Under the pieces are notes generated by a model. It ran no database searches. It was not told the origin of the DNA and worked only from the letters and a program-made list of their open reading frames with translations. A stretch of 34,223 bases of DNA from Phycisphaeraceae bacterium (GTDB lineage: Bacteria; Planctomycetota; Phycisphaerae; Phycisphaerales; UBA1924), in assembly GCA_021604785.1 (NCBI GenBank), contig BQJQ01000009.1, forward strand, positions 1 through 34,223, read 5' to 3'. The translations under genes were made by a program, and so were the position numbers. Shown here one piece after another: positions 3,389 through 30,028 of this stretch. Every line of letters starts with the position of its first letter. The first letter of the stretch is position 1.

Positions 3389-3565
3389 GAGCGGGCATGC
3401 TCGCGGGGGAGCCCGCAAAGATGTGTGTCGCTTGGGGCAGTTACTCGATCACAAGATGATGGCGAGCCGGCGCGTCGAGGTGAGAGGGTTGTTGACGCTT
3501 GGCGAGCCGGGGTCCCATTGTTGGGCCGGCTGGTCGCCCCGCTTGCAGGTCACGTACGCTTGTGT

Positions 3566-4945
3566 ATGGAAGAACAACCGGGCGGTGTGGTCGATGAAGT
3601 CTGTGATCCGCGGGAGCTGTTGGAGCTCATGAGGGCGGGTGATCAGGGCGCGGTCCTGGCGGTGTTGGATCGGATGGGCACCGCGGACGAGGTGCTGGCG
3701 TTTTCGCGCCTGCCCGAGGACGCCCGGGGCGAGTTGCTCCTGCTCATGGGCCCCGAACGGGCGGCGGATCTGATCCAGGCGCTGCCCGAGCCGCTGGCGT
3801 CGGACGCGTTCGAGGCGCTCGAGCCGGCCGACGCGGCGCGGATTCTCGAGCGGATGCCTAGCAACGAGCAGGCGGATGTCATCGGCGAGCTGGATGACGA
3901 TGACGCCGGGGCGATCATCGGGCACCTGAGCGAAGAGGACGCGCACGAGATGCGGCGCCTCGTGGCGTACCCCGACGACGTCGCGGGTGGGCTGATGGTG
4001 ACGGAGTACCTGTCATACGCCGTGAACGCGCGTGTGGCCGAGGTCATCGAGGACCTGGGCACGAACGCGGAGGAGTACGCGCACTACGACATCCAATATG
4101 CCTACGTGACCGATGAGCACGGCGGCTTGGTCGGCGTGCTCCGCATGCGGGACCTTCTGCTGGCGCCGAGGAACAAGCCACTCCGCGACGTGATGATCCC
4201 CAGCCCGGTGTCGGTGGGGGACCACGACCCGCTCGAGCGGCTGGTCCGGTTTTTCGACGAGAACCGGTTCTTTGGCGTGCCCGTGCTCGATGACACGGGC
4301 GCGTTGTGCGGCGTGGTCCACCGTGTGGCCGTCGAAACGGCGGTCGCCGAGCACGGAGACCGGATGTACCTGAGTGCGCAGGGCATCGTCGGCGGCGAGG
4401 AGCTGCGGTCGATGCCGCTGCTGCTGCGCGCCCGGCGCCGGCTGTCGTGGCTCAGCGTGAACATCGTGCTCAACATGGTCGCTGCGAGCGTGATCGCGAT
4501 GCACCAGGACACGCTTGAGGCGGTCATCGCGTTGGCCGTCTTCCTGCCCATCATCTCGGACATGAGCGGGTGCTCGGGGAATCAGGCGGTCGCGGTGAGC
4601 ATGCGCGAGCTGACACTGGGCGTGGTGCGCCCGACCGAGATCGCTCGGACGGTTCTCGCGGAAGTCTCGGTGGGGCTGATCAACGGGCTGGTGCTGGGGC
4701 TCCTGCTCGGTGTCGTCGCGTTGGTGTGGAAGGGGAACCCGTACCTCGGCATGGTCGTGGGGGGGGCGTTGATGCTCAACACGGTCGTCGCGGTGGTAAT
4801 CGGGGGGGCCGTGCCGCTGGTGCTCAAGCGGGCGAAGGTGGACCCGGCGATCGCGGCGGGGCCGATCCTCACGACCGTCACCGACATGTGCGGGTTCTTC
4901 ATCGTCCTGACGTTCGCGTCGTCGATGCTCTCTCGGCTCACTTGA
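3566..4945 (+). CDS. mgtE: MgtE-family magnesium transporter
   Basis: Protein of 459 aa, the normal MgtE length. Residues 15-130 form the acidic helical N domain (repeated LxxLP/DA motifs, ERMPSNEQADVIGELDDDD). Residues about 131-260 are two CBS domains (DVAGGLMVTEYLS, then DVMIPSPVSVGDHDPL). Residues about 290-459 hold five membrane helices. The last helices carry GPILTTVTDMCGFF, whose Asp440 matches the pore Asp that binds Mg2+ in MgtE. The N and CBS domains normally sense cytoplasmic Mg2+ and close the pore. The segment before TM3 reads SDMSGCSGNQAVAV, unlike the more common GMGGNAGTQS version. ATG 3566 places the N domain correctly; a longer frame to 3425 adds 47 residues of non-domain sequence. 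No Mg2+ riboswitch is evident upstream. Confidence 0.93.
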   Translation: MEEQPGGVVDEVCDPRELLELMRAGDQGAVLAVLDRMGTADEVLAFSRLPEDARGELLLLMGPERAADLIQALPEPLASDAFEALEPADAARILERMPSNEQADVIGELDDDDAGAIIGHLSEEDAHEMRRLVAYPDDVAGGLMVTEYLSYAVNARVAEVIEDLGTNAEEYAHYDIQYAYVTDEHGGLVGVLRMRDLLLAPRNKPLRDVMIPSPVSVGDHDPLERLVRFFDENRFFGVPVLDDTGALCGVVHRVAVETAVAEHGDRMYLSAQGIVGGEELRSMPLLLRARRRLSWLSVNIVLNMVAASVIAMHQDTLEAVIALAVFLPIISDMSGCSGNQAVAVSMRELTLGVVRPTEIARTVLAEVSVGLINGLVLGLLLGVVALVWKGNPYLGMVVGGALMLNTVVAVVIGGAVPLVLKRAKVDPAIAAGPILTTVTDMCGFFIVLTFASSMLSRLT

Positions 4946-4957
4946 GCGCGGCGGCGG

Positions 4958-5953
4958 TCAGCGTTCCGACGCTTCGGTGGGCAGGCCCACGGTGAACGCC
5001 CGCGGCTCGAACGCGTCGAGCGTGAACTGTTCCTGCTGGCCCGGCCAGTGCAGCGTCATGGTGCGCGCGGCGGGGCGGTATTCCGCGACGTACAGCGTCC
5101 CCGACGCGTGGGCGTAGTTGTGCTGCCAGAGCGGGGGACGGAGGAAGGCGCCCAACGCGTCGGCTGCGGACGCGGGCCCGGCGGTGAGCGATTCGAGCTC
5201 GGCGAGACGCTCGACGCTCTGCGTGTGCTGGCAGTACGCGGGCCAGTCCACCGTGGATTGGTGGTTGCTCGAAGCCCGGCGGGTGACGAACCGCGTCGGC
5301 ACGTCCGGACCGGTGTAGGCGGTGACGAACGCCCCGGACGCGTCGGCGATCACGAACGTGTAAGGCATGTAGACCGGGACGCGGGCGAGCGCATCCTTCG
5401 CATCATCCACGGTGGCGCAGGTCTCGAGGATGTACCGGGTGACGAGGGGTGCTGCGAACCCGGGGCCCAGGGCGTCGCGCCCGCCGAAGGCGAGGGCGAT
5501 GGCGAGCCCGTGATCGTTGATGCCGTCGAGGGCGCCCCAGAGGCAGTCGGCCATCGCGAGCGTCGGGCGACCGAGCCAGGCGCTGCGGAGGACGAGGTCG
5601 TCGAGCAGCGCCGGGTGGTGGTCGTAGCTGCGAAGGAGGACGGGGCCGTCGTCATCGAGGACGATCTGCGAGCACCCGCGCACGACGCGCGGCGGATTGT
5701 AGAGGGAGAGGAACGTCGCGATGGCATCCCCGCCGCCGAACGCCTCGAGCAGCCGTTCGTAGACCGGGAACAGCTCGGGCATGTGGGCGCGGATCTGCGC
5801 GGCGCCGCCGATCTCCGGCGGAGGGCTCGCGCGGCGCATCCACCGCCGGTACGCGGGCCAATACTCGGCAAAAACGCTCGCGAGCGCGGCGCCGGCAGGG
5901 TCGTCGTTGATGGCCCGGAACGCGATGGCCGTCGGGATGGCGCGCCCTGTCAT
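4958..5953 (-). CDS. C45-type Ntn-hydrolase / acyl-CoA:6-APA acyltransferase-like
   Basis: Protein of 331 aa. Its core resembles the C45 (isopenicillin N acyltransferase-like) and choloylglycine hydrolase branch of Ntn-hydrolases. Cys94 in VVRGCSQIVL is the likely nucleophile, followed by a strand and LLRSYDHHP at the usual NxD position. Then come ALDGINDHGLAIALAFGG, the family's GmNexGL-like loop, and ASSNHQS further on. In this family the Cys may need to be freed by self-cleavage of the preceding residues, here about 93. Members cut or transfer linear amide bonds. It is the last gene of the six-gene operon and its ATG overlaps the stop of the ATP-grasp gene (ATGA), so the two products are probably made in similar amounts. 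The substrate is inferred to be an amide made by its neighbours. Only 12 nt separate its stop from the convergent mgtE. Confidence 0.78.
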   Translation of the reverse strand: MTGRAIPTAIAFRAINDDPAGAALASVFAEYWPAYRRWMRRASPPPEIGGAAQIRAHMPELFPVYERLLEAFGGGDAIATFLSLYNPPRVVRGCSQIVLDDDGPVLLRSYDHHPALLDDLVLRSAWLGRPTLAMADCLWGALDGINDHGLAIALAFGGRDALGPGFAAPLVTRYILETCATVDDAKDALARVPVYMPYTFVIADASGAFVTAYTGPDVPTRFVTRRASSNHQSTVDWPAYCQHTQSVERLAELESLTAGPASAADALGAFLRPPLWQHNYAHASGTLYVAEYRPAARTMTLHWPGQQEQFTLDAFEPRAFTVGLPTEASER

Positions 5954-7503
5954 AGCAGCTTGAACCCGCCGGGCTCGACGCCGGCGTCGATGCTCTGCGC
6001 GGGGGCGACGGGGGTGCCGGCGTAGTGCGATTGGATGCCGTGCGTCCAAGCCTTGGCGCGCTCGGTGAGGTCGAAGTTGTCGGTCATGAACCGCCCGGGG
6101 CTGACGAGGATGCCCAGGTCCGCGCCGTTGTAGAGGTAGTCGCCCTCGCCGGAGATGCGGAGGAAGAAGGCGCGGTTTTCGTGCTGCACGGTGCGCCGGT
6201 GCGTCTGCATGCGGACATGGCGGATCTGCCCCGACCCGTCGATCTCCCAGAGCCCCGAGGGCGGGGCGGCGGTAATGTGCTTCACGTCGTCGCCCGTGTA
6301 CTTCATGACCAGCTGCGACCAAGAGTCGATATTCTCCGGGTCCGACCAGCGTGTGTTGAGATCATCGACGTCGTAGTCGGACTTGATGCCCATCCATTCG
6401 AGCAGGTGGAACAGGAACAGCGGCGCGTCCGCGTGGGCGAACGACGAGAGGTTGGTCATCGAGCTGGCGCCGGTGATCCGCGGGTTGCACTCGCCCAGGT
6501 AGACTTTGCCCGCGTCGAGATCGGTGAGGAAATCGAGCTCGAAGTACCCGCGGTACCCCTGCGCTGCGAGCCCGTCGCCAAATTTCATGGCGGCGTCGCG
6601 GGCCTTCTTGCGGGTCTTGGCGTCGAACGCGCCCGCGAAGACCTCGTTGCCGCACCACCCGCCGCGGTACGGGGTGAGTTCTTTGAACCCGACGAGCTCG
6701 GTCATGAGCGGCCCGACGATGGTGCCGTTGGATGTCACGCACGCTTCGAGCGCCGCGCCGCGGCAGCGGATCCGCTTCATCACCTTGACCTCGGGCGCCT
6801 CGGTGATGTCCGCGGCATGCTTCTCGAAGTCGGCCTCATTGGAGACGAAGAAGGTTGTGTGCCCCGAGTCGCCGTAGGCGGTCTGAATGACCAGGTCGTC
6901 GCCCAGTTTGGCGGTCGCCTTGCGCAAGGCCTTGTACGAATCGATCTTCGCGAGCACGTTGGGCACGGACTTCACGCCCGCCCGGTCCGCGATGCGGGTC
7001 GTCTCGACCTTGTCGTCGATCGCGTTGCGGAGTGCGGCGGTCGGGAAGCAGACCTCGAGCCCGAGCTCCTTGCAGAGTGCCTCGGTCTTCTCATCGAACA
7101 TCAGGAAGACGGCTTTGCCCCCCTTGCCGCGTTGCTTGATGAACTCGGCGACCGCCGGGTGCGAGAGAAGGTAGTTGTTGATGTCCTCGATCGAGGTCCA
7201 CGGCTCGTGCTCGATCTCGGGGGGCACAAAGACGTTGGGGTGCTGCCCGTCGAAGCAGTCGATCGCGTTGATGTAGGTGAACCCGCGGACCCACTCGTCC
7301 ATGCCCAGCAGGTTGAACGGGGTGGCGCTGATGAAGTAGACCGGCTCGGTGTTGCGGTAGAAGAAGCGGCGGATGTCCGAGATGCCGCGGAGGCGCCGCT
7401 GGTCGCCGTCGGCGGCGTGGTCGGACGCGAGCGGGCGAGCCCCGGACGCGAGCGACTTGCCCTTCTTGGGGGCGGACTTGGTTGGCGGTCTTCCTGAGCC
7501 CAT
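5950..7503 (-). CDS. ATP-grasp domain protein (probable carboxylate-amine ligase)
   Basis: Protein of 517 aa. After a basic, disordered start (about 40 aa) comes a pre-ATP-grasp domain (EPVYFISATPFNLLGMDEW). The ATP-grasp fold follows: DDKVETTRIADRAGVKSVPN, strand DDLVIQTAYGDSGHTTFFV with the flexible loop, and metal ligands in GYRGYFELDF (about Glu322) and YLGECNPRITG (about Glu338, Asn340). Such proteins are often annotated as biotin carboxylase, but no biotin carrier or carboxyltransferase is nearby. Most stand-alone ATP-grasp enzymes join a carboxylate to an amine through an acyl phosphate. It lies 3 nt after the decarboxylase and overlaps the C45 hydrolase. I infer it ligates the amine made by the operon; the partner acid is unknown. 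A C-terminal region of about 150 aa beyond the core has no motif I can name. Confidence 0.85.
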   Translation of the reverse strand: MGSGRPPTKSAPKKGKSLASGARPLASDHAADGDQRRLRGISDIRRFFYRNTEPVYFISATPFNLLGMDEWVRGFTYINAIDCFDGQHPNVFVPPEIEHEPWTSIEDINNYLLSHPAVAEFIKQRGKGGKAVFLMFDEKTEALCKELGLEVCFPTAALRNAIDDKVETTRIADRAGVKSVPNVLAKIDSYKALRKATAKLGDDLVIQTAYGDSGHTTFFVSNEADFEKHAADITEAPEVKVMKRIRCRGAALEACVTSNGTIVGPLMTELVGFKELTPYRGGWCGNEVFAGAFDAKTRKKARDAAMKFGDGLAAQGYRGYFELDFLTDLDAGKVYLGECNPRITGASSMTNLSSFAHADAPLFLFHLLEWMGIKSDYDVDDLNTRWSDPENIDSWSQLVMKYTGDDVKHITAAPPSGLWEIDGSGQIRHVRMQTHRRTVQHENRAFFLRISGEGDYLYNGADLGILVSPGRFMTDNFDLTERAKAWTHGIQSHYAGTPVAPAQSIDAGVEPGGFKLL

Positions 7504-7506
7504 GGG

Positions 7507-10236
7507 TCACACCCTTTCGGTGTTGGTGGTCGTGAGTTCGCCCGACGAAGCCCGCTCGAGCGCGGCCTCGGTGAAGACGCGGAGACCCTTGACTGGGTCG
7601 TACCCGTGGATCTCCTTGACGTCCAGGGCGAGGAGGTAGGCGATGATCTCCGGGCTGAGCACCTGCCCGGGGACAAGGATCGGGAACCCGGGCGGGTATG
7701 GCGTGACGAAAGCGGCCGAGACGTACTCGTGCCCGTCCTCGATCGTCGCGAGGGTCGCGCGGTCGAGCCCGATGAGATCGATGTTGTTTTCGTCGTAGGC
7801 GAGGAAGTACGCACGCCGGAGGTCGCCCTCGGGCGTGGGGGCGCTGTCGGGCTTGAAGGCGCTGTGGAAGCGGCTGAAGTTGGGCAGCGGCGGGCCCTCG
7901 ATCAGCGAGTCCACCCGGGCCGAGTGGCGGGCGAGCCCCGAGTCGCTCTCGACCGAGAGCCGGTCGGCGATGTCAAGCGAGATCTCGACGAGGACATCGA
8001 CGAGGTAGGCGATGTCTCCGCGGGTGGTGCCGATGTTGGGCATGAACAACGCGGTGTTGCGGGAGGTTTTGTTGATCTGGATGTCGTACTTGTCCATGAG
8101 CAGGTGGCGGAAGGTGTCGCCGTCCATGCCCGTGGCGCCGATGTAGAGCGTCACGCGCGTGGGGTCGAGCGTGAACTCGTCCATGCGGTAGGCGCGGTCG
8201 AGCTGGCCCCACCCGTGCTCGTTGTCGTAGTAGAAGTCCAGGCCCGACGGGCGGTGGTCGTTTGGGATCATGTCCGCCGGGCGGAGGACAGAGAAGAACC
8301 GGGCGATGTCCGGGTGCTCGCTGACGCGCTGTCGGAGGGTCATCGCGAGCCCGATGGTCTGCTCGACCATCTCGAACCCCTCGAGCTCGACCTGGCGGCG
8401 CCCGACGTCGAGCGACGCGACGATCTGGTAGTTGGGCGAGGTGGACGTGTGCGTCATGAACGCTTCGTGGAACGAGTCCGATGCCTTCTGCTCGAAGTCC
8501 TCGTCGTAGACGTGGATCATGGAGCCCTGCCGCAGCGACGTGAGCGTTTTGTGCGTCGATTGCGTCGCGTAGACGCGGATGCGGACGCGTTCGGGGTCCA
8601 CCATTGCGTCGGCGTCGCTCGCCTGGGCGTACGTCGCTTTGTATTCCGGCGAGCGGAACCGCGTGCGGAGTCGGCTCGCGGCGTCCATCGCGGTCCGACG
8701 GCGCAGCGTCGGGCTGAACCGGGCGTAGGCGTACCACGCCTCGTCCCACAAGAAAATCATGTCGGGCTTGATCGCGAGCACACGCTCCATGACGCGATCG
8801 GGGTCGTAGGTCAGCCCGTCGAAAGTGCAGTTGGTGAGGATGAGCATCCGCACCTGGTCGAGCTTGCCCGCGGCCTTGAGGTCGAGCAACTGTCGCTCGA
8901 TCTCCTCGAGCGGCACGGCGCCGTACATCGAGTACTGCGGCAGCGCGTACGAATCCAGATAGACCGGCATCGCACCCGCGAGGGCCAGGGCGTAGTGGTG
9001 CGACTTGTGGCAGTCGCGGTCCACCAGCACGATGTCGCCTGGCTGGATCATCGCCTGGGCGACGATCTTGTTGGCCGTGGAGGTGCCGTTGGTGACGAAG
9101 TAGGAGTGCCGTGCCCCGAAGGCTCTGGCCGCGCTGTCCTGCGCCTTCTTGATCGGGCCGCGGGGCTGGAGGAGCGAGTCGAGCCCGCCGCTGGTCGCCG
9201 ACGTCTCGGCCATGAAGATGTTGGGCCCGTAGAAGTCGAGCAGGTCCTTGGCCCAGTGCCCGCTGCTCATCGACTTGCCGCGGGCGATGGGCAGGGCGTG
9301 GAAGACGCCCGTGGGCTTGGCGCTGTACTTGCGCAGCGCGTCGAAGAAGGGCGCCTCGAACCGCGAGCGGACACCCTTGAGGATGCTCAGGTGCTGCTCC
9401 ATGTGCTGCTCGAGCCGGTAGAAAACGCGTCGGAAGTTCGTGCCGTGGTTGCCGGCGACGCGGTCGAGCGGCGCGTCGGTGACGAGGAACAGGTCGATCT
9501 CCGGGCGCAGCCGCTTGATCTGCTTGGCGAGCTCGACGCTGCGGTCGAGCCCGAAGCACGTCGGCATCGCGTCGGTTGTCAGGACGTCGAGGTACCGGCT
9601 CAGGGCCGGGTCCTGGTGCTCCGTGCGGAACGCGTAGTTGTACCGTAGGAAGACGGTTTGGATCGTCCAGTTGAACTGCACCGCGATCAACGCGTCTTCG
9701 AGCGAGGGGACGGTGAGGAGCTCGTAGACGAATTCGTCGGTGTCCCGCCGGCAGGCGCGGAGCCCGTCGCGGAGTTCTTCGTGGTCGTACCCGTCGATGC
9801 CGTCCACGACGAGGACCTCGAAGTACGGCTTGCCGGTCTTCGTATGCTTGCCCGGCGCGTCCTTGCGTGCGTCGGCGAGCTGGTCCGCGTGGGTCGCCGC
9901 TTCGAGGCTCGCGTTGCGCTGGCGGTATGCGTCGCCCACGAGGAGGCGGGCGAGCTCGCGCGCTTCGTTGGCAAGGTCGGCGTAGGCCCCGTGCTCAAGC
10001 AGCGCTGTCAGCTTCGCCATGCGGCCAAGCCCGGGGAACGCCCAGAACGACTCGAACGTGCGCAGCCTCGCGAGACTCTCGGCGACCAGCGCCCGGGGCT
10101 CGGTCAGGTCCCGCTTCTCGCGGCTGAACTCCTTGAGCCAGGCGCACCGCGACTGGAAATCGTTCCATGTGTCGAGGCGCAGCTGCGGCGCGCTGTACGG
10201 TCCCGGCGGCGGTGTATGGGAGCTGGCTTTCGTCAT
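7507..10236 (-). CDS. PLP-dependent Lys/Orn/Arg decarboxylase (fold I, AdiA/LdcI type)
   Basis: Protein of 909 aa, clearly longer than the about 710-760 aa of bacterial inducible decarboxylases. Residues 140-300 look like the receiver-like wing domain (EVLVVDGIDGYDHEELRDGL). The PLP domain runs from about 310 to 700: SATSGGLDSLLQP, YFVTNGTSTANKI, DRDCHKSHHYAL, FLWDEAWYAYARFSP (the counterpart of DSAWVPYxxFSP in lysine and ornithine decarboxylases), and ATQSTHKTL, whose Lys (about 563) binds PLP. A C-terminal domain follows. The first about 140 residues are an extra helical region. The enzyme should remove CO2 from arginine, lysine or ornithine to give agmatine, cadaverine or putrescine; which one cannot be read from sequence. 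ATG 10236 overlaps the nitrilase stop as TGATG; GTG 10239 is also possible. Confidence 0.92.
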   Translation of the reverse strand: MTKASSHTPPPGPYSAPQLRLDTWNDFQSRCAWLKEFSREKRDLTEPRALVAESLARLRTFESFWAFPGLGRMAKLTALLEHGAYADLANEARELARLLVGDAYRQRNASLEAATHADQLADARKDAPGKHTKTGKPYFEVLVVDGIDGYDHEELRDGLRACRRDTDEFVYELLTVPSLEDALIAVQFNWTIQTVFLRYNYAFRTEHQDPALSRYLDVLTTDAMPTCFGLDRSVELAKQIKRLRPEIDLFLVTDAPLDRVAGNHGTNFRRVFYRLEQHMEQHLSILKGVRSRFEAPFFDALRKYSAKPTGVFHALPIARGKSMSSGHWAKDLLDFYGPNIFMAETSATSGGLDSLLQPRGPIKKAQDSAARAFGARHSYFVTNGTSTANKIVAQAMIQPGDIVLVDRDCHKSHHYALALAGAMPVYLDSYALPQYSMYGAVPLEEIERQLLDLKAAGKLDQVRMLILTNCTFDGLTYDPDRVMERVLAIKPDMIFLWDEAWYAYARFSPTLRRRTAMDAASRLRTRFRSPEYKATYAQASDADAMVDPERVRIRVYATQSTHKTLTSLRQGSMIHVYDEDFEQKASDSFHEAFMTHTSTSPNYQIVASLDVGRRQVELEGFEMVEQTIGLAMTLRQRVSEHPDIARFFSVLRPADMIPNDHRPSGLDFYYDNEHGWGQLDRAYRMDEFTLDPTRVTLYIGATGMDGDTFRHLLMDKYDIQINKTSRNTALFMPNIGTTRGDIAYLVDVLVEISLDIADRLSVESDSGLARHSARVDSLIEGPPLPNFSRFHSAFKPDSAPTPEGDLRRAYFLAYDENNIDLIGLDRATLATIEDGHEYVSAAFVTPYPPGFPILVPGQVLSPEIIAYLLALDVKEIHGYDPVKGLRVFTEAALERASSGELTTTNTERV

Positions 10237-11204
10237 CACGCGTTCCCCGCCGCCGGGGGAGGCGCGCCCAGGCCGTGACCGGTCACGGGTGCGGGCACGG
10301 CGGGTGATTCGACCGGGTCAGCGTCTGATGGGCCGGCGATGCCCGCGCGGGAGCCGCGGGCCATTTTTTCAAGCGGCCCGAGCGAGTCGAGGTACGCCGC
10401 GACGCCCGATACGCGGTCGTAGACGGGGAAGTCCACGACGCGGTCACGGAAGCTTTTGAGCGGCTGACCGAGCCCCTTGAGCCCGACCTCGCGCGAGCGA
10501 CGGACCCGGTCAAGGTCGAGCTCGATCGGGAGCATCTCCTCGTTGCTGCCGGCCTGGTAGAGCACATCGCCCGTGGGGGAGACGAGCAGGGACCGCCCGT
10601 TGCCGCCGTCGCCGATGCCGTTGATGTCGATGACGTAACACTGGTTCATCGCGGCGGTGGCGCGGACGATCGAGAGCTCGACGTCGCGGTCGATGCTGCC
10701 GGTCAGGGTGGGATGGAGGATCACCTCGGCGCCCATCGCGGCGAGGGTGCGGGAGGTCTCGGGCATCCACATGTCGTAGCAGATGCTCACGCCGAACCGC
10801 CCGACGTCGGGGACGTCGAAGACGCAGAACTCGGTGCCCGACTCGACACCCGTCTCGTATGGCATGAACGGGAACATTTTGCGGAAGCGAGCGATCACCT
10901 CGCCGGCGGGGTTGATGACCGGGGCGGTGTTGTAGATCCCGCCCGAGGTCTGTTCGTAGAGGGAGCCTGGGATGAGCCAGATGGAGTGCTTGGCCGCGAG
11001 CCGGCGGTAGGTCTCTTCGACCTCGCTTGGCAAGGGGACGGCGTTGCCGGTCCACCCGCCGAATGTTGCGAGTTCGCTCACCAGCACCATCTGCACCCAG
11101 GGGTACAGGTGCATGAGCATCTCGATGCGGTCGCAGATATGGGGGAGATTGGATTGGCGTCCGGAGATGTTGAGCTGGAGGCCGGCGACGGCGAACGGAT
11201 GCAT
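10236..11204 (-). CDS. carbon-nitrogen hydrolase (nitrilase superfamily)
   Basis: Protein of 322 aa with the Glu-Lys-Cys triad of the nitrilase superfamily: Glu44 in LVSELATFGG, Lys109 in ARFRKMFPF, and Cys142 in VSICYDMWMPE. It opens with VAGLQLN, the usual first strand. Members hydrolyse amides, carbamoyl groups or nitriles; those in polyamine routes include N-carbamoylputrescine amidase (AguB) and 5-aminovaleramidase (DavA). The preceding residues in VSICYD are typical of aliphatic amidases, but they do not fix the substrate. A Pro/Ala-rich tail of about 35 residues is probably disordered. ATG 11204 has AAGGG 7 nt upstream and lies 4 nt after the aminotransferase stop. Its place between aminotransferase and decarboxylase suggests it works on an amine-derived amide. 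Confidence 0.9.
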   Translation of the reverse strand: MHPFAVAGLQLNISGRQSNLPHICDRIEMLMHLYPWVQMVLVSELATFGGWTGNAVPLPSEVEETYRRLAAKHSIWLIPGSLYEQTSGGIYNTAPVINPAGEVIARFRKMFPFMPYETGVESGTEFCVFDVPDVGRFGVSICYDMWMPETSRTLAAMGAEVILHPTLTGSIDRDVELSIVRATAAMNQCYVIDINGIGDGGNGRSLLVSPTGDVLYQAGSNEEMLPIELDLDRVRRSREVGLKGLGQPLKSFRDRVVDFPVYDRVSGVAAYLDSLGPLEKMARGSRAGIAGPSDADPVESPAVPAPVTGHGLGAPPPAAGNA

Positions 11205-11208
11205 GGGG

Positions 11209-12531
11209 TTACCCTTCAGAGCCGGCGCGGGCCGGCTGCTTGGTGTGCGCAGAGATCGCGTTGTCGAGGATATCAAGCCCGCGTTCGAGGTCCGCGTCGG
11301 AGATGACGAGCGGGGCGAGGACGCGGATGACGTTGCCATCCACGCCGGCGGGGATGACGATCAGCCCGTTGTCGCGGCAGGTCGCGACGATGCTCTTAGT
11401 CAGCGCTGCGTCCGGGGTCGCGGGGTCGCCGTTGCGTGAGAACTCGATCGCCATCATGGCGCCGAGCCCGCGGACGTCGGTGACCTCGGGCACGCGGGAG
11501 GCGATCGCCTCGAACCGCTCGCGGATGCGGGTGCCCGAGTGCTCGCCGCGGGCGTTGAGGCCGAGGGATTCCATTTGACGGATGGTGGCGAGCGCGCCGG
11601 CGCAGGCGACGGGGTTGCCGCCGTAGGTTCCGCCGAGGGTGCCCGGGGTGACGCGGTCCATGACCTCGGCCTTGCCGAGGACGGCGGAGATGGGCAGCCC
11701 GCCGCCCAGAGACTTGGCCCACGTCGAGAGGTCGGGCGTGACGCCGTAGTGCTCGTACGCCGCCCAGCGCCCGGTGCGCCCGAAGCCGGTCTGGACCTCG
11801 TCAAAGATGAGCATGATGCCGTGCTCGTCGCAGATCTCGCGGAGCCCGCGGACGTACTCGGGCGGCGCGACGTTGAACCCGCCCTCGCCCTGGACGAGCT
11901 CGATGATGATCGCCGCGACGTTACCCGGCGCGACCGTGTCGTGCAGTGCTGCACGCAGGCGCGTCAGCTCACGCTGCGAGACGTCGTGCTCGCTGCCGCC
12001 GCGGTGCTGGCGAACGAGCGGGTATGGCAGGCGGTAGACCTCGGGCGCGAAGGGCCCGCACCCGATCTTGTAGCTCACCTTTGAAGTCAGCGATGTCGCG
12101 AGCAACGTCCGTCCGTGGAACGCGCCGGTGAAGCAGATCACCCCGGCCCGCCCGGTCGCTTGGCGCGCGATCTTGATCGCGTTCTCGACGGCCTCGGCCC
12201 CGGTGTTGACCAGCAGCGCCTTGGTGCTCGGGCCGTGCGGGAGCAGCTCGACGAGCTTCTCGCATAGCGCGACGTAGGGCTCATACGTCGCGACATGGAT
12301 GCTCGCGTGCAGCAGCTCGCCCGCCTGCTCGCGGATTGCGCGAACTACCTGCTCATCGCAGTGCCCGACGTTCATGACGCCGATGCCGCCGGCGAAGTCG
12401 ATGAACGCGCGCCCGACGAGGTCGGTGACCGTCGCCCCGTGCGCGCTGGCGACCGTGAGGTCGGACATGCGGCCAACCCCCTGGCACACGACCCGCTCGC
12501 GCCGCCGGATAAGCTCGTCGCTGCTGGACAT
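11209..12531 (-). CDS. gabT: class III aminotransferase (GABA/putrescine/5-aminovalerate type)
   Basis: Protein of 440 aa with the whole class III pattern: FAGGIGVMNVGHCD near the start, LLVNTGAEAVENAIKIAR, CFTGAFHGRT, IIIELVQGEGG, LIFDEVQTGFGRTG with the PLP-binding Asp (about 244), and LSTWAKSLGGGLPISAV with the Schiff-base Lys (about 273), then TPGTLGGTYGGNPVACA. This is the GabT/DavT/PuuE group of omega-amino acid or diamine aminotransferases, which pass the amino group to 2-oxoglutarate. The next enzyme encoded is a semialdehyde dehydrogenase, so an omega-amino acid such as GABA or 5-aminovalerate is the likely substrate. I chose ATG 12531, which has AGGAG 7-8 nt upstream; GTG 12561, 1 nt from the preceding stop, would add 10 residues. 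The symbol reflects the family, not a proven substrate. Confidence 0.92.
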   Translation of the reverse strand: MSSSDELIRRRERVVCQGVGRMSDLTVASAHGATVTDLVGRAFIDFAGGIGVMNVGHCDEQVVRAIREQAGELLHASIHVATYEPYVALCEKLVELLPHGPSTKALLVNTGAEAVENAIKIARQATGRAGVICFTGAFHGRTLLATSLTSKVSYKIGCGPFAPEVYRLPYPLVRQHRGGSEHDVSQRELTRLRAALHDTVAPGNVAAIIIELVQGEGGFNVAPPEYVRGLREICDEHGIMLIFDEVQTGFGRTGRWAAYEHYGVTPDLSTWAKSLGGGLPISAVLGKAEVMDRVTPGTLGGTYGGNPVACAGALATIRQMESLGLNARGEHSGTRIRERFEAIASRVPEVTDVRGLGAMMAIEFSRNGDPATPDAALTKSIVATCRDNGLIVIPAGVDGNVIRVLAPLVISDADLERGLDILDNAISAHTKQPARAGSEG

Positions 12532-12562
12532 CCCTCGCTCCTGAATGGGTTCTGCTGTCACG

Positions 12563-13996
12563 TCAGAGCTGCCACGAGACGTATTTGATCTCGGTGTACT
12601 CGTCCATCGCGTACTTCCCGCCCTCGCGTCCGAAGCCGGAATGCTTGACGCCGCCGAATGGGGCCTGGGCGGTCGAGGGCCCGCCGTCGTTGGCGCCGAC
12701 GATGCCGTACTCGAGCGCCTCGGCGACGCGCATCAGGCGCGAGGCGTCGCGGGTAAAGTAGTACGCGGCCAACCCGTACTCGGACGCGTTGGCCAGCTCG
12801 ATCGCCTCGCGCTCTGCGGTGAACCGGGCGACCGGGGCGACCGGGCCGAAGGTCTCTTCGCTCGCAAGCTTCATATCAGGCGTCATGCCCTCAACAAGAG
12901 TGGGGGCGTAGAAGCGGTTCGCCAGGCCCTTGGGGTGCACGCGATCGCCGCCCACGGGCACCGTGGCGCCGTGCGAGCGGGCGTCCTCGACGTGCGACTC
13001 GACCTTCTCGACCGCGGCGTCGTTGATGAGCGGGCCGATGTCCACGCCTTCGTGCGCGCCGTCGCCGACGGTGAGCTTCGAGACCGCCTCGGTGAACCCC
13101 GCCACGAACTCGTCGTAGACGCCATCCTGCACGTAGAACCGATTGGCGCAGATGCACGTTTGCCCGGCGTTGCGGAACTTGCACGCGACGGCAGCCGCGA
13201 CCGCCTTGCCCACGTCCGCGTCGTCGAAGACCAGGAACGGCGCGTGCCCGCCCAGCTCGAGCGACAGGCGGAGCAGGTGCTCGGACGCCTTGGACATGAG
13301 CAGCTGCCCAACCCTGGTCGAGCCGGTGAACGAGAGCTTGCGGACCCGGTCGTCGTCGAACAGGGCGTCGCCGATGGTCGCCGCGTCGCCCGTGACGATG
13401 TTGACCACCCCGTCGGGGATGCCCGCTTCGCAGGCGAGCTCGCCGATCGCCAGCGCCGAGAGGGGGGTCAGCTCGGCGGGCTTGATGACAACAGTGCACC
13501 CCGCGGCCAGGGCGGGCCCGAGCTTGCGGGTGATCATCGCCGCGGGGAAGTTCCAGGGCGTAATGATTCCCGTGACGCCCACGGGCTGGCGGAGGACGAG
13601 GATCCGTTTGTCGGGCGCCGACGCGGGGATGATGTCCCCCGTCAGACGTTTGCCCTCCTCGGCGGCCCAGCTCAGGAACGACGCGGCGTACGCGATCTCG
13701 CCGCGGGCCTCCGCGAGCGGCTTGCCCTGCTCAGCCGTCATCAGGGCCGCCAGCCGGTCCGTGTCCCGCCGCATGAGCCCGGCGAGGGCGGACAGCAGCC
13801 CGCCCCGCTCGCCGGCGGTCTTGGCGGCCCACGACTCGCGCGCCCGCCAGGCCGCGTCGATCGCCGACCGGGTCTCCGCCGCGCCAACGGAGGCGACCTC
13901 GGCGATGACCTCATCCCGCGCCGGATTGGTCACGCGGAGGGTCGCTCCGTCCGAGGCTCCGACCCAGGCACCGTCGATCAGGTTGTGTGTTTGCAC
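12563..13996 (-). CDS. gabD: NAD(P)-dependent semialdehyde dehydrogenase (succinate/glutarate semialdehyde type)
   Basis: Protein of 477 aa, full aldehyde dehydrogenase length. Visible signatures are ITPWNFPAAMITRKLGPAL (Asn about 149 of the oxyanion hole), CTVVIKPAELTP, LSFTGSTRVGQ, LSLELGGHAPFLVF (Glu about 247) and FRNAGQTCICANRFYVQ (catalytic Cys about 281), plus SEETFGPVAPVARF and the closing APFGGVKHSGFGREGGKYAMDEYTE. These match the GabD/DavD group that oxidises succinate or glutarate semialdehyde. It is the first gene of the six-gene operon. I chose GTG 13996 because the family starts at about QTHNLIDGAWV and GAAGG lies just upstream; the TTG at 14026 has no site. The spacing is short (about 4 nt). 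The call as class is secure; the chain length of the substrate is not. Confidence 0.93.
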   Translation of the reverse strand: MQTHNLIDGAWVGASDGATLRVTNPARDEVIAEVASVGAAETRSAIDAAWRARESWAAKTAGERGGLLSALAGLMRRDTDRLAALMTAEQGKPLAEARGEIAYAASFLSWAAEEGKRLTGDIIPASAPDKRILVLRQPVGVTGIITPWNFPAAMITRKLGPALAAGCTVVIKPAELTPLSALAIGELACEAGIPDGVVNIVTGDAATIGDALFDDDRVRKLSFTGSTRVGQLLMSKASEHLLRLSLELGGHAPFLVFDDADVGKAVAAAVACKFRNAGQTCICANRFYVQDGVYDEFVAGFTEAVSKLTVGDGAHEGVDIGPLINDAAVEKVESHVEDARSHGATVPVGGDRVHPKGLANRFYAPTLVEGMTPDMKLASEETFGPVAPVARFTAEREAIELANASEYGLAAYYFTRDASRLMRVAEALEYGIVGANDGGPSTAQAPFGGVKHSGFGREGGKYAMDEYTEIKYVSWQL

Positions 13997-14061
13997 GTGT
14001 CCTTCTTTAGCGGTACCCGACGCCAATCCACACCGTGATCACCTACCGCCAAGGCTCCAAG

Positions 14062-16599: not shown

Positions 16600-16696
16600 A
16601 AGTGAGCGTAGCGTTGTTGGTTGATTGTCCGCCGTGGATCGCGTTGAAACGGCGCGGGCCTTGGGGCCCAACAATGCGAGCGGAGGGGGTGCACGC

Positions 16697-18307
16697 ATGC
16701 CGGGACCAACGGAGCAGCAAAGCGAGACGGGGACCGGCGGGGGGGGATGGTTCGCACGCCTGCGTGGGCAGCTTCGTGGGCGGAGCCCGTTCGAGGGGGA
16801 CATCCGCCCGAGCCGGGTCTCGGTTCTTGGGCGGGGACCGTTGCCGTTCCCGCACCCGTGGAACTACACGCGTCCGCTGGAGATCCTCGACCGGTTCTTT
16901 CGTGGGGCGGACGAGCTCGAGGGGTCGTCCCGGCACAACAGGTATCTGGATGTCCCCGGGTTTGCGCCTGTGCTGGTGACGCGCGACCCCGGGCTGATCC
17001 GAGCGATCTCGGCGGCGTCGAGCGACAAGCCCGGGTCGTTCGAGCGCGACACCATGCCCTCGGGCGGGATCGCGCGCGCGACCGGAAAGAACACGCTGCT
17101 GTACGCGAACGGGCCGGCGTGGAAGGCGCAGAAGAAGCTCGCGAACCCCGCGTTTGCGCGCACGACCCTGTTCCAGCCCGAGCGGTTCGGGGCGTTCGAG
17201 GAGACGTTCCGAAAGACCGCCGCCGAGCGGCTGGCGCTGGTCCGCGAGCGTGTTGAGCGTGGTGGTGAGGGTGTCACGGTGCGGCTCGAGCCGGAGATCA
17301 AGGCGGTGATGCTCGAGCTGCTCGTGGCGAACTTCTTTGGGGCGGAGGTCGAGTACACCGAGATCCGGGATCGGTACGTGCCCGCGTTGGATCGGGTGAT
17401 CGACCACATTGTGCGCGACACGGTGCTGAACAAGCTGGGGGTGCCGCTGGGGTGGGTGCCGGCGTTGACGCCCGGGATTGCGCGCACGAAACGGGCGCGC
17501 GCGGACTTTGAGGCGCTGACGGACCTCGTGATCGAGGCGCGGCACCGCGGGGCGGGGCAGTGGGGGCAGTTCCGGTCCGAGGCGCCCGACGAGGCGCTGC
17601 GGAGCAACATCCGGGTCTTTCTCGCCGGGGCGCTTGAGGCGACGACGTCGTACGCGAGTTGGGCGATCGCGCACCTCGCGCGGCACCCTGAGGCGCAAGA
17701 ACGTGTCTATGCGGAGATCCGTGGCATCAGGGACTACACGCCGGAAGCGCTCGCCGGGGCGCCGCAGCTGGGGTACGTGCTCGACGAGACGCTGCGGCTG
17801 ACGCCGTCGCTGTACTTCCATCCGCGTCGGGCGTCGGTTGATACGTGGGTCGAGCGCCCGGACGGCGCGCGTTTGATGATCCCCGCGGGAACGCACATCC
17901 TGCTGGACATCTGGCACGCGAACCGCCATGAGGATCACTGGGGGGTGGAGCCGACGGGCTACCCGGCCGAGGCGTTTGCTCCCGAGCGTTGGGAGGGGTT
18001 CGCGGCCCGGGGTGAGGGGCCGAACGAGCGGCTGCACTTCGGGTTTGGGCACGGGCCGCGGTTTTGCCCGGGGAAAAACCTCGGGCAGCTCGAGGTGGCG
18101 CTGGTCGTGGGCGCGTGCGTGAAGATGTTTCGGTTTACGGCGCCCGAAGCGCCGAACCCGGCACGCGCGGGTGTCTCGACGAAGCCGCTTGATGGCGTGG
18201 TCGCGGAGCTCCGCGTGCGCGATCCGCATGAGCCCGACGAGGCGATCGCGCCGCAGCCCACGGCGCCCGCGGGCGGGTGCCCCTTTGGGCACGGGCGGAG
18301 CGGCTGA
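16697..18307 (+). CDS. cytochrome P450
   Basis: Protein of 536 aa. The haem-binding loop is FGFGHGPRFCPGKNLG with Cys457 as the axial thiolate. The K-helix ExxR is DETLR (Glu364, Arg367), and the PERW motif is APERW (428-432). The I-helix reads LAGALEATTSYASW; the acidic residue usually placed directly before Thr is Ala here, with Glu one position earlier. It is longer than most soluble bacterial P450s (about 400 aa), with an N-terminal basic region that could be a membrane-associated segment but has no clear helix. The last residues are GGCPFGHGRSG, containing a Cys-Pro dipeptide like a haem-regulatory motif. GGAGGGGG precedes ATG 16697 at good spacing. No ferredoxin or reductase is adjacent. 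Substrate unknown. Confidence 0.93.
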   Translation: MPGPTEQQSETGTGGGGWFARLRGQLRGRSPFEGDIRPSRVSVLGRGPLPFPHPWNYTRPLEILDRFFRGADELEGSSRHNRYLDVPGFAPVLVTRDPGLIRAISAASSDKPGSFERDTMPSGGIARATGKNTLLYANGPAWKAQKKLANPAFARTTLFQPERFGAFEETFRKTAAERLALVRERVERGGEGVTVRLEPEIKAVMLELLVANFFGAEVEYTEIRDRYVPALDRVIDHIVRDTVLNKLGVPLGWVPALTPGIARTKRARADFEALTDLVIEARHRGAGQWGQFRSEAPDEALRSNIRVFLAGALEATTSYASWAIAHLARHPEAQERVYAEIRGIRDYTPEALAGAPQLGYVLDETLRLTPSLYFHPRRASVDTWVERPDGARLMIPAGTHILLDIWHANRHEDHWGVEPTGYPAEAFAPERWEGFAARGEGPNERLHFGFGHGPRFCPGKNLGQLEVALVVGACVKMFRFTAPEAPNPARAGVSTKPLDGVVAELRVRDPHEPDEAIAPQPTAPAGGCPFGHGRSG

Positions 18308-26740: not shown

Positions 26741-27829
26741 TTATCGATCGGCTGGGAGCGCCGCTGCGAGCGCGGCGATCTGGTCGGGCGTGTGGGCGGC
26801 GGTCGCGGTGGCGCGGAAGTAGCGGGGGGCCGGGCCTGAGGGGTATTCGATCAGCGGGACATCGAGCCCGGCGGCGAGGAGGGCGCCCCGCAGGGCGGTC
26901 ATCCGGGCGTCGTCGCGATCCCAAAACGCGAAGATGGGTGTCGATTCGTCCGTGGGGCCGAATCCGGCGTCGTTGATGGCTCGGTCGAGCAGGCGGGCGT
27001 TGGCGCGCATCCGCTCGCGCCGTACGGGCTCGTCGGCGTTGACGGCGAGTGCTTCGCGGGCCGCGGCGATCAGCGGCGGGGGCGTGGGCGTGGTGCAGAC
27101 GTAGGTGCTCTGCGAACGTGTTCGTTCGACCAGTTCTCCGTCGGCGATGACGGCCCCGCCGGCGCATCCGAGTCCCTTGGCCAGCGTCGTGGTCATCACG
27201 ACTCGGCCGGCGGGCGCCAGGCCCGCGTGGTTCAGCGTGCCCTGGCCCGAATCGCCCAGCACCATGAACCCGTGGCAGTCATCGACCAGCAGCGAGCAGT
27301 GCTCAGTGGGCAGGGCGTCGAGCAGGGCCCGGACCGGGGCGCGTGAGCCGTCGGCGGTGAAGACGCCGTCGGTCGCGAGCACGACCGGACCGCTGGCGGA
27401 CCGGGCGACGCGGGCGGCGTCTTCGGGGTCGAGGTGGGCGAACGTCCGCACGGGCAGCCCCGCGGCTTCGGCGGCGAGGAAGAGCGACCGGTGGGCCCTC
27501 TCGTCGAGCACCGCGCTGCGGACACGCATCGCCAGGGCCTGCATCGCGGCGATGTTCGCCGTCAGCCCATCCAACAGGAGCACGGACGCCTGGGCATCGA
27601 GGAACCGGGCGAGGTCGGCTTCGAGCCCCCGGTGCTCGGGGGTGTCGCCCGTAGTGGTGCGGCTGGCCGAGGTGCTCAGGCCGTATCGCGCGGCGGCGGC
27701 GGTGGCGGCTTCGATGACGCGGGGGTGGCGGGAGAGACCCAGGTAGTCGCACCCGCCGAAGACGACCGGGGTGGTGCCCGCCGGGCAGGTGCGGGTCGTG
27801 GTCGGGTCGGTGGCGAGAATTGGGTTCAT
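26741..27829 (-). CDS. alpha-oxoamine synthase-family enzyme (BioF/KBL-like), short form
   Basis: Protein of 362 aa in PLP fold type I. Visible are CDYLGLSRHPRVIEAATAAA (for the usual SNDYLGL), STSASRTTTGDTPEHRGLE, DERAHRSLFLAAEAAG, the DEAHG equivalent VDDCHGFMVLGDSGQG (Asp183, His186), and TTTLAKGLGCAGGAVI with the PLP Lys218. Members condense an amino acid with an acyl-CoA, as in 8-amino-7-oxononanoate synthase or 2-amino-3-ketobutyrate ligase. It lacks about 30-40 residues at the N-terminus found in BioF and Kbl. No other biotin gene is in the window, so bioF is not assigned; a threonine-aldolase-like or lyase role is possible. It precedes a K+ channel gene with a 25-nt gap, a pairing that explains nothing obvious. 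Confidence 0.82.
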   Translation of the reverse strand: MNPILATDPTTTRTCPAGTTPVVFGGCDYLGLSRHPRVIEAATAAAARYGLSTSASRTTTGDTPEHRGLEADLARFLDAQASVLLLDGLTANIAAMQALAMRVRSAVLDERAHRSLFLAAEAAGLPVRTFAHLDPEDAARVARSASGPVVLATDGVFTADGSRAPVRALLDALPTEHCSLLVDDCHGFMVLGDSGQGTLNHAGLAPAGRVVMTTTLAKGLGCAGGAVIADGELVERTRSQSTYVCTTPTPPPLIAAAREALAVNADEPVRRERMRANARLLDRAINDAGFGPTDESTPIFAFWDRDDARMTALRGALLAAGLDVPLIEYPSGPAPRYFRATATAAHTPDQIAALAAALPADR

Positions 27830-27869
27830 CTTCGTGGATTATCGTCAGAACTGGGCGGAGGCGTTCGGT

Positions 27870-27889
27870 TTGGTGGTGCCCCCCACCAA
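27870..27889. repeat. inverted repeat upstream of the oxoamine-synthase-like gene
   Basis: TTGGTGG (27870-27876) and CCACCAA (27883-27889) form a perfect 7-bp inverted repeat with a 6-nt centre, 41 nt upstream of the minus-strand start codon at 27829. The position suits an operator. A second repeat, CCCGGGC and GCCCGGG (27948-27964), lies nearer the divergent binding-protein gene. Confidence 0.4.
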
Positions 27890-27897
27890 GGGCGCGT

Positions 27898-27926
27898 TTG
27901 TAGGCGGGGGCGGGCACCGGTAGGAT
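27898..27926 (+). promoter_or_regulatory. weak promoter candidate for the peptide importer operon
   Basis: TTGTAG (27898-27903) and TAGGAT (27921-27926) are 17 nt apart, with 3 and 4 consensus matches. Transcription would start near 27933, about 70 nt before the binding-protein ATG, and the leader would include the CCCGGGC/GCCCGGG hairpin (27948-27964). The evidence is thin; the spacing is the best part of it. Confidence 0.25.
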
Positions 27927-28003
27927 CCCCCCACGGTGCCGAGGGTACCCGGGCGCCGCCCGGGCGGTCGCGGTCCGCGTCAGAGTCGCATCAGGAGGCT
28001 GCC

Positions 28004-30028
28004 ATGAGCGTTGTTCGAGCATTGGGTCGGGTGTGTGGGTGTGCGGTGCTGGCCGTCGCGGTCGGGACGGCATCGGCGCAGGAGAAGGTCGCCCAGTTGC
28101 CAATTCGGACCGACGGGCCCAAGAGCCTGGACCCGGTCGTGGGCTCGACGGTGTACGACAACATGGCGTGCGCGCAGATCTACGAGACACTGCTGGTGAA
28201 CAAGTACGCCAAGCCGACGGAGAAGGAGCCGCTGCTGCTCGCCGAGATGCCGGTGAGCGAAGACGGCGGCAAGACCTGGAGCCTGAAGCTCAAGCCCGGC
28301 GTGCTCTTCCACGACAACGCGTGCTTCACAAAGACGAAGGGCAAGGGTCGCGAGCTTGTGACGGACGATGTGTTCTACTCGTTCAAGCGTCTCGCGGACG
28401 CGGCGTACGAACTCGAGAGTTGGTGGCTGCTCAAGGACACGGTTGAGGGGTTCGACGAGTTCAAGCGGATCCAGAACTGGCGCGGCTCGATGCCCGAGCG
28501 GGCGTCGTGGCTGAGCAACCAGAGCCCCGAGACGTTCAAGAAGACGCTGTTCGACCGCGAGCTGAAAAACCGGCTCGATACCGCGCTCAAGGACAAGGAC
28601 GAGGATGAGGTCGCGGAGATCACGCGGAAGATCACCGAGCAGTTCAACAAGGACCTGACGCCCGCGGACCTCGACACGCTCGCGGCGGAATTCGCGAACC
28701 AGCCCGCGGCGACCTTTGAAGCGGCGGAGTTCGACTACGCCGCCCCGGTCGCGGGGTACCGCAAGATCAACGACTACGAGTTCGAGATCGAGCTCGTGGC
28801 CCCGGTGACGCGGTTCGAGTGGGTCCTGACGATGTTCCAGACGTCGATCGTGGCGCGTGAAGCAGTCGAGAAGTACGGCGACGATTTCTTCCGCAACCCG
28901 GTCGGCACAGGGCCGTTCATGCTTGAGTCGTGGACGCCCAAGAAGGACCTGCATCTCGTCCGCAACCCGAACTACCACGAGGTGATGTACCCCGAGCGGG
29001 GCGAGTGGGATCGGCCCGATCAGCGGAACCGTCTGCACCGCGCCGCGGGCCAGCAGGTGCCGTTCCTGGACCGGATCGAGTTCACGATGTACGCGCAGGA
29101 CCAGCCGATGTGGCTGCAGTTTGAGGCCGGGCGGATCGGGTACACGCAGGTTCCCGACGAGTACTTCCCGCAGGCGTTCGACAAGCGGACCAAGGAGCTT
29201 CTGCCGTCGGTCGCGGCCCGGGGCATCCGCGGGCACGCGAACAAGCTGCTCGACTTCATCTTCCGTGGGTTCAACATGGACGACGAGCTTGTCGGCGGGT
29301 ACGGGCCCAAGAAGAAGGCGCTGCGCCAAGCCATCAGCCTCGCGGTGGACCTCAACGAGTTCAATGAGACGTTCTACTCCGGGCTCAACGTTGTCTATGA
29401 CGGCCCGATCCCCCCGGGGCTCGACGGGTACCCAGAGGGCGGCACGTCGTCCGCCGCGTACCAGGGTCCGAACCTGGACCTGGCGCGAAGCAAGCTCGCC
29501 GAAGCCGGTTACCCGGACGGCGAGGGGCTGCCCCCGATCAAGTTCTACACCCAGAACGGCGGCAACTCGCCCGAGCAGACCGAGCTGCTCCAACGCCAGC
29601 TCTCCCGCATCGGCGTCGAGCTCGACGTGCAGCTCGTGGACTTCTCCACGCTCATCGACGCGGTGAACAAGAAGAACGCCGCGATGTTCAGCTTCGCGTG
29701 GTCGAGCGACTACCCGGACGGCGAGAACAACCTCGCCCTCTTCTACGGCCCCAACGAGGCCCCTGGGGCGAATCACTACAACTACAAGCGGGACGACTAC
29801 GACGAGATGTACGAGCAGATCCTGACCATGCCCGCCGGCGATGAGCGCACGGCGATCATGGTCGAGATGCGGGACATGATCCTCGAGGACGTGCCCTACG
29901 TCGGGTCCATGGCCCGCGAGCGGCACTACGTGATCAACCCGTGGCTGCTGAACTGCAAGCCGACCGAGCGGTATTACGCGTGGTTCAAGTTCCTGGATGT
30001 GGACGATTCGAAGCGCCCTGAACGTTGA
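28004..30028 (+). CDS. peptide-type ABC transporter substrate-binding protein
   Basis: Protein of 674 aa with a Sec signal peptide (VLAVAVGTASA, cleavage near 25/26), exported and not lipidated. It matches the DppA/OppA family (SBP_bac_5): LPIRTDGPKSLDPVVGSTVY, WSLKLKPGVLFHD, ELVTDDVFYSFKRLAD, NPVGTGPFMLESW, then ALRQAISLAVDLNEF and AEAGYPDGEGLPPIKFYTQN. OppA-type proteins are usually 520-560 aa. The extra length is mainly a charged helical stretch at about 148-250 (many Lys, Glu and Asp) between the usual ADAAYELESWW and GYRKINDYEFEIEL parts. Family members capture peptides or other solutes. AGGAGG is 5 nt before the ATG. It is the first gene of an importer operon, with a 50-nt gap to the permease. 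The ligand is unknown. Confidence 0.93.
   Translation: MSVVRALGRVCGCAVLAVAVGTASAQEKVAQLPIRTDGPKSLDPVVGSTVYDNMACAQIYETLLVNKYAKPTEKEPLLLAEMPVSEDGGKTWSLKLKPGVLFHDNACFTKTKGKGRELVTDDVFYSFKRLADAAYELESWWLLKDTVEGFDEFKRIQNWRGSMPERASWLSNQSPETFKKTLFDRELKNRLDTALKDKDEDEVAEITRKITEQFNKDLTPADLDTLAAEFANQPAATFEAAEFDYAAPVAGYRKINDYEFEIELVAPVTRFEWVLTMFQTSIVAREAVEKYGDDFFRNPVGTGPFMLESWTPKKDLHLVRNPNYHEVMYPERGEWDRPDQRNRLHRAAGQQVPFLDRIEFTMYAQDQPMWLQFEAGRIGYTQVPDEYFPQAFDKRTKELLPSVAARGIRGHANKLLDFIFRGFNMDDELVGGYGPKKKALRQAISLAVDLNEFNETFYSGLNVVYDGPIPPGLDGYPEGGTSSAAYQGPNLDLARSKLAEAGYPDGEGLPPIKFYTQNGGNSPEQTELLQRQLSRIGVELDVQLVDFSTLIDAVNKKNAAMFSFAWSSDYPDGENNLALFYGPNEAPGANHYNYKRDDYDEMYEQILTMPAGDERTAIMVEMRDMILEDVPYVGSMARERHYVINPWLLNCKPTERYYAWFKFLDVDDSKRPER

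Follow-up and report, generated by a model that had tools for sequence, protein, structure and literature searches.

The window, that is the whole stretch of DNA analysed here (34,223 nt from a Phycisphaeraceae bacterium), corresponds to contig C9 of a 2.87-Mb draft genome. Within it, six genes run in one direction from position 14026 to 4958, in the order aldehyde dehydrogenase, class III aminotransferase, nitrilase-superfamily amidase, PLP-dependent decarboxylase, ATP-grasp ligase and C45 Ntn-hydrolase (Table 1). The first two junctions of this run are gaps of +1 and +4 nt, the third is an overlap, the fourth a gap of +3 nt and the last again an overlap; the ATG at 11204, the likely nitrilase start, lies 4 nt past the aminotransferase stop. 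A sequence-only reading had placed the last two genes, and the ATGA shared between them at 5953..5950, correctly, but had treated them as a stand-alone two-gene system. The tight junctions show instead that the pair closes a run of six genes at its 3' end, apparently an undescribed operon and probably a catabolic one. The 4-nt overlap by itself is weak evidence and is not universal. As a conserved signature it was rejected, a possible start at that offset being present in only 24 of 100 loci.

Table 1. Genes and features of the six-gene run (window coordinates)
Feature	Position	Strand	Product length	Basis or remark
C45 Ntn-hydrolase gene	4958..5953	-	331 aa	Pfam AAT, NF040521
ATGA overlap	5950..5953	-		C45 start and ATP-grasp stop
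ATP-grasp amide ligase gene	5950..7503	-	517 aa	NF005096, ATP-grasp fold
PLP decarboxylase, Orn/Lys/Arg family	7507..10239	-	910 aa	Rv2531c homologue
Nitrilase-superfamily amidase	10236..11204	-		Likely ATG start at 11204
Class III aminotransferase, GabT/PuuE-like	11209..12561	-		TIGR00700, PDB matches
Aldehyde dehydrogenase, SSADH-like	12563..14026	-		TIGR01780; first base of gene uncertain

The C45 protein is recognized by both Pfam AAT (PF03417; 101.2 bits, cut-off 23.2, E 9e-29) and NCBIfam NF040521 (133.2 bits, cut-off 85). A PDB search with the single sequence returned weak, unrelated matches only; the fold search decided the matter. The predicted model (pLDDT 92.7, pTM 0.92) has the Ntn-hydrolase alpha-beta-beta-alpha fold that the sequence-only reading had anticipated, and has the isopenicillin N acyltransferase precursor as its nearest solved structure (2x1c_B; Z 29.2, rmsd 3.0 over 297 residues, pro-region included), with the precursors of NAAA and acid ceramidase as next-best folds. 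Like isopenicillin N acyltransferase (2x1c, 2x1d, 2x1e), the family has Gly-Cys or Ala-Cys at the expected cleavage site; identity in the structural alignment is 14%. For penicillin V acylases and bile salt hydrolases, the alignment to the model begins at residue 94. This residue is a cysteine in all 58 relatives and is preceded by G (45 relatives), A (11) or S (2), in agreement with the suggestion that it is the nucleophile. The two findings that would have refuted the sequence-only reading, another fold or a variable Cys94, were not made. Cys94 is thus the predicted nucleophile, with self-cleavage probably occurring between Gly93 and Cys94. R108 (57/58), D111 (58/58) and N230 (58/58) are putative further active-site residues, matched to those of Ntn-hydrolases by conservation and spacing. 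Release of the 93-residue fragment, which had also been suggested, is unlikely, because the segment matches the isopenicillin N acyltransferase pro-region in the model, and that enzyme retains its pro-region as a bound alpha subunit. No obvious signal peptide was found in the C45 sequence.

The ATP-grasp protein scores 741 bits (cut-off 684) against NCBIfam NF005096, a family named "biotin carboxylase". Its predicted model (pLDDT 79) bears out the ATP-grasp fold and matches PurK, biotin carboxylase and PylC (Z 20 to 22). D324, E338, N340 and R342 are invariant in the family. Fold and E-x-N-x-R motif are shared with PylC and other ATP-grasp carboxylate-amine ligases, although identity to these is as low as 8 to 14%, and the longer motif E-x-N-P-R-x-x-G is most naturally read, we presume, as that of an amide (carboxylate-amine) ligase. 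The database name is unsupported, because the biotin carboxylase motif NPRIQVEH reads NPRITGAS in the profile alignment, with Gln and the catalytic Glu replaced, and because the QRRNQK stretch of biotin carboxylases is not conserved. On these residues (no QVEH and no HQK-type motif), identity as a true biotin carboxylase was rejected.

The decarboxylase has a PF01276 domain (268.8 bits) and the PLP-binding catalytic lysine, Lys564, which is present in all 69 family members. It is a full-length homologue (E 5e-241) of a solved "probable amino acid decarboxylase", Rv2531c of M. tuberculosis (9n0n, 9n0o, 9n0p), the activity of which is unknown (PMC12910592). In lysine decarboxylase, Glu526 has been proposed to bind the distal amine of the substrate (PMC5607190). 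The operon's enzyme has no acidic residue there. Asn723 occupies the position in 69 of 69 decarboxylases, which makes it unlikely that the operon enzyme simply decarboxylates free ornithine, lysine or arginine. Rv2531c also has Asn at this position, but Ile in place of Arg727, a residue found in 68 of the 69 family members. Functions outside polyamine metabolism have been discussed as possible for AAT-fold homologues (PMC8503589).

The nitrilase conserves Glu89, Lys154 and Cys187, numbered as in the longer frame 10236-11339, and its best NCBIfam match, N-carbamoylputrescine amidase, is weak (76 bits, cut-off 410). The aminotransferase remains just under the cut-off of TIGR00700 (488.7 bits, cut-off 506.65) and has PuuE and GabT as PDB matches. 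The aldehyde dehydrogenase reaches 568 bits against Pfam Aldedh and 636.8 bits (cut-off 646.35) against the succinate-semialdehyde-dehydrogenase-like TIGR01780.

Of 61 related genomes, nine have ATP-grasp ligase, C45 protein and decarboxylase together, and the others have none of the three. A weak 18.6-bit match in a tenth genome is not a family member. Eight of the nine genomes also have the nitrilase; in the ninth, G026, the contig ends at its expected site (the decarboxylase match starts at base 6). Among 100 usable loci from at least five phyla, the C45 gene lies directly downstream of the ATP-grasp gene in 93, an adjacency far beyond chance, and the decarboxylase gene is found at most 600 nt upstream of the ATP-grasp gene in 88 of 98. 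In a neighbourhood survey of the 80 best of 252 relatives, taken from genome contigs, the six-gene order was seen again in Planctomycetota, Gemmatimonadota, Myxococcota, Acidobacteria, and Alpha- and Gammaproteobacteria; some loci, L057, L063 and L070 among them, are rearranged, yet retain all six genes. The closest relatives of the ATP-grasp protein are from Phycisphaerales MAGs, and the matches on Sinorhizobium meliloti plasmids that are listed by name come from SM11 and RU11/001. SMa0680 and SMa0682 of S. meliloti, which figure in several papers, could not be linked to this family. No phage copy of the family was detected at the limit used. Several loci have glutamate/aspartate-type transporters (SDF symporter and family-3 binding protein) or TAXI-type TRAP transporters as neighbours, Dpp-type importers are found near various loci, and an HTH-cupin regulator adjoins about 11. 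These transporters and regulators favour catabolism, but not any single substrate.

Some loci retain the nitrilase, ATP-grasp and C45 genes without the decarboxylase. These type II loci, as opposed to the type I loci with decarboxylase, are found on Shinella and "Roseateles" plasmids (L093, L094), on a plasmid of Sinorhizobium sp. RAC02 (L115) and in a gammaproteobacterium (L123), the genome of which (G942) has no full-length operon decarboxylase elsewhere. In the decarboxylase's stead, they have genes for an amino acid permease, an agmatinase-family protein, a 2-oxo-acid decarboxylase, an aldehyde dehydrogenase, a D-amino-acid dehydrogenase and a racemase. At L093, the agmatinase-family protein (TIGR01230, 212 bits, cut-off 174), the 5-guanidino-2-oxopentanoate decarboxylase (737 bits, cut-off 500) and the D-amino-acid dehydrogenase (473 bits, cut-off 383) exceed their cut-offs; the ornithine-racemase-like protein, which is fused to an arginase-like stretch, does not (393 bits, cut-off 480). 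In the ATP-grasp tree, the type II loci fall into two groups set apart by type I loci. A single type II clade was rejected (log-likelihood 183 lower, p-AU 4.6e-9), for a group that was named after the first tree had been viewed. The type I locus L122 carries, next to its GabT-like gene, an agmatinase-family gene that shares 69% identity with that of the type II loci. Both sets would do the same net job, conversion of an amino acid to an aldehyde or acid that is shorter by one carbon, and this equivalence points to a common amino acid of the ornithine/arginine kind.

We tentatively suggest, at somewhat less than an even chance, that the pair, together with the nitrilase, is the constant core of an operon for the breakdown of ornithine or arginine to GABA and on to succinate, with the side-chain amine capped for part of the route. 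The substrate may be ornithine, or arginine via ornithine, and lysine may also be used. The ATP-grasp ligase would first cap the amino acid at its side-chain amine with a carboxylic acid, which could be glutamate. The decarboxylase, with Asn and Arg rather than the usual Glu in its distal pocket, would then remove CO2 from the acylated amino acid to give an acylated diamine, the free end of which would be oxidized by aminotransferase and aldehyde dehydrogenase to acyl-GABA. The C45 enzyme, self-cleaved before Cys94, would hydrolyze the acyl group to set GABA free, and GabT- and SSADH-type activities would carry GABA on to succinate. Type II loci would arrive at the same kind of aldehyde by another way, with racemase, D-amino-acid dehydrogenase and 2-oxo-acid decarboxylase in place of the decarboxylation and transamination steps. 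The nitrilase would be a second amidase alongside the C45 enzyme.

This is the simplest reading in which ligase and amidase have opposite roles on one bond. The replacement of Glu526 by Asn fits a capped, uncharged side chain, the presence of GabT- and SSADH-like enzymes speaks for a GABA-type end of the route, and the proposal accounts for the retention of the pair where another set of enzymes has taken over the decarboxylation chemistry. Support also comes from the structural relatives of the two enzymes, since isopenicillin N acyltransferase cleaves a side-chain amide and PylC acylates the side-chain amine of lysine, and from genomics, by the all-or-none co-occurrence in the 61 relatives, the adjacency of the pair, its recurrence across phyla, and the swap of the decarboxylase for an ornithine/arginine-type set in two lineages that kept nitrilase, ATP-grasp and C45 genes. 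The earlier idea that the two enzymes handle the same bond, for example that of an amine-protecting acyl group, is supported in so far as it places both enzymes in one pathway; the protecting group itself is the best-fitting reading only, as we infer rather than observe the acyl group.

The E. coli Puu pathway offers a precedent for the logic. There, an amine is acylated at the expense of ATP, oxidized at its free end and deacylated to GABA, which enters the GabT/SSADH route. The same order of capping, oxidation and uncapping is proposed here, and the likeness extends to the GabT/PuuE-like and aldehyde dehydrogenase genes and to the HTH-cupin regulator near some loci. The enzymes differ: the ligase is of the ATP-grasp type and not glutamine-synthetase-like as PuuA, the deacylase is a C45 Ntn-hydrolase and not of the amidotransferase type as PuuD, and the operon includes a decarboxylase and a nitrilase in addition. 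The window operon contains no PuuA- or PuuD-type gene, but ATP-grasp, C45 and nitrilase genes instead, and none of its six genes encodes a PuuB-type FAD oxidase. By analogy, the system would work as a known kind of pathway run by other enzyme families.

Several observations speak against the capped route. In type I and type II loci alike, the nitrilase is retained as constantly as the pair, yet the route assigns it no step. Aminotransferase and aldehyde dehydrogenase must each act twice, or be helped from elsewhere. Arginine could be degraded to GABA by the type II enzymes with no cap at all, and the glutamate/aspartate-type transporters near some loci equally indicate a route from glutamate.

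Alternatively, the operon could be biosynthetic, with an amide product made from the amine that the decarboxylase releases and the C45 protein as a tailoring acyltransferase. Ligases and decarboxylases are a common biosynthetic pair, and the nearest solved relative of the C45 protein is an acyltransferase of antibiotic biosynthesis. We nevertheless consider this unlikely in view of the catabolic companions (importers, D-amino-acid dehydrogenase, 2-oxo-acid decarboxylase, aldehyde dehydrogenase, GabT) and of the tight packing of the window operon, which leaves it without exporter or carrier protein. In particular, an acyl carrier protein gene as in the butirosin-type pathway (BtrI/J/K/G) is absent from the window operon, as gaps of at most 4 nt between the six genes exclude it. 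The earlier suggestion that the C45 protein moves an acyl chain onto the ligase product likewise found no support in this analysis.

Unlikely as well, and close behind biosynthesis, is a route from glutamate, in which the ATP-grasp enzyme would couple glutamate to an amine as a gamma-glutamyl amide, the decarboxylase would convert this to a GABA amide, and the C45 protein or the nitrilase would free GABA, for GabT and SSADH to produce succinate, and return the amine for reuse. Such a route would require every enzyme once, its amide side chain would suit Asn723 and Arg727, and the SDF, family-3 and TAXI-type transporters would find an explanation. It would, however, spend ATP where glutamate decarboxylase needs a single step, and would give no reason for the ornithine/arginine-type gene sets in both type II lineages. 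A literature search for glutamine decarboxylase found nothing relevant.

There is less still to recommend a carbamoyl route, in which citrulline would be decarboxylated, the nitrilase would decarbamoylate carbamoylputrescine or ureidobutyrate, and the pair would act later or on a side branch, for example to gamma-glutamylate putrescine. The ureido group could be bound by Asn723, and N-carbamoylputrescine amidase is after all the best match of the nitrilase, but a match so far below its cut-off carries little weight, deiminase or carbamoyltransferase genes do not recur in the neighbourhoods of the best 80 of 252 relatives, and the pair would have no necessary role. Similarly doubtful is a variant of the capped route in which the C45 protein is a transacylase that passes the cap from acyl-GABA to the next ornithine; the ATP-grasp ligase would then be needed only to start a cycle that renews itself. 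Run by an enzyme of the isopenicillin-acyltransferase type, such a cycle would mirror, in catabolism, the ArgJ acetyl cycle. It is very improbable that the ATP-grasp protein really is the biotin carboxylase of its database name and has its C45 neighbour by coincidence, since name and score of NF005096 and the presence of biotin carboxylase and PurK among the nearest folds are outweighed by the altered motifs, by the lack of a biotin carrier or carboxyltransferase gene in the window operon, and by the C45 gene next door in 93 of 100 loci.

If the capped route is correct, a misannotated "biotin carboxylase" family and a C45 family gain a place in GABA-forming catabolism in at least five phyla, and the decarboxylase family that includes Rv2531c gains a testable substrate idea, namely side-chain-modified amino acids. 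The repeated swap of the decarboxylase for a non-homologous gene set indicates which reaction step the two have in common and opens the pathway to direct tests.

We found no paper on the pairing of ATP-grasp and C45 genes, which is weak evidence of absence because the search did not extend to most subscription journals, and the paper on the CATCH-N arginine network had no match to the operon genes. Two known systems resemble parts of the scheme. The Pseudomonas route through arginine racemase, D-arginine dehydrogenase and 2-ketoarginine decarboxylase operates without a ligase or C45 enzyme; such a gene set is found in type II loci beside nitrilase, ATP-grasp and C45 genes, whereas type I loci, including the window, use the PLP decarboxylase. 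Ebony and Tan of insects, an ATP-driven amide maker and a C45-family amide cutter, are also a make-and-break pair, although Ebony is NRPS-like and not an ATP-grasp enzyme, and the physiological context is unrelated.

Elsewhere in other genomes, the nitrilase, ATP-grasp and C45 genes also occur without the decarboxylase. A second, diverged copy of the trio lacking it lies in two gammaproteobacterial genomes, and at two further loci (L040 and L041) the ATP-grasp gene stands alone, with none of the other five operon genes within 10 kb. At L093, where a racemase-type gene set replaces the decarboxylase, an arginase-family domain is joined to an ornithine-racemase-like protein, an unusual fusion that is present too in L094, L115 and L123. 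One locus carries two different C45 genes, 640 nt apart.

In Rhizobium leguminosarum, the decarboxylase, ATP-grasp and C45 genes adjoin nifHDKE on a conjugative, symbiotic plasmid (L095). Rhizobial relatives of these copies appear to be partly degraded; in one of them (L096), the decarboxylase gene is split and the C45 gene is shortened, with an IS30 transposase alongside.

In the window, an MgtE magnesium transporter gene lies tail to tail with the C45 gene, and a relative of this transporter occupies the same place at L014, L020 and L021. Other lineages (L092, L095, L117) have Dpp-type importers adjacent to the operon; the importer genes of the window are 13 kb distant from it. The planctomycete genome also has a cytochrome P450 gene.

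Coordinates of the features in the window and at loci of ATP-grasp relatives
Locus	Positions	Feature	Detail
Window	3425-4958	MgtE gene and its junction with C45	gap to C45, 12 nt
Window	16625-18307	Cytochrome P450 gene	PF00067, 1.4e-37
Window	27434-33733	Oligopeptide-type ABC importer genes	family-5 binding protein, two permeases, ATPase
L093	12779-14566	Racemase-like/arginase-family fusion	PF00491, residues 415-564
L102	6849-10301	Diverged nitrilase/C45/ATP-grasp copy	ATP-grasp identity 45-49% (range for L102 and L121)
L121	833-4398	Diverged nitrilase/C45/ATP-grasp copy	ATP-grasp identity 45-49% (range for L102 and L121)
L040	10001-11455	Lone ATP-grasp gene	66% identity to window ATP-grasp
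L041	10001-11443	Lone ATP-grasp gene	66% identity to window ATP-grasp
L122	10568-13125	Two C45 genes	38% and 37% identity to window C45
L095	1-10440	Decarboxylase, ATP-grasp, C45 genes	NZ_CP016290.1
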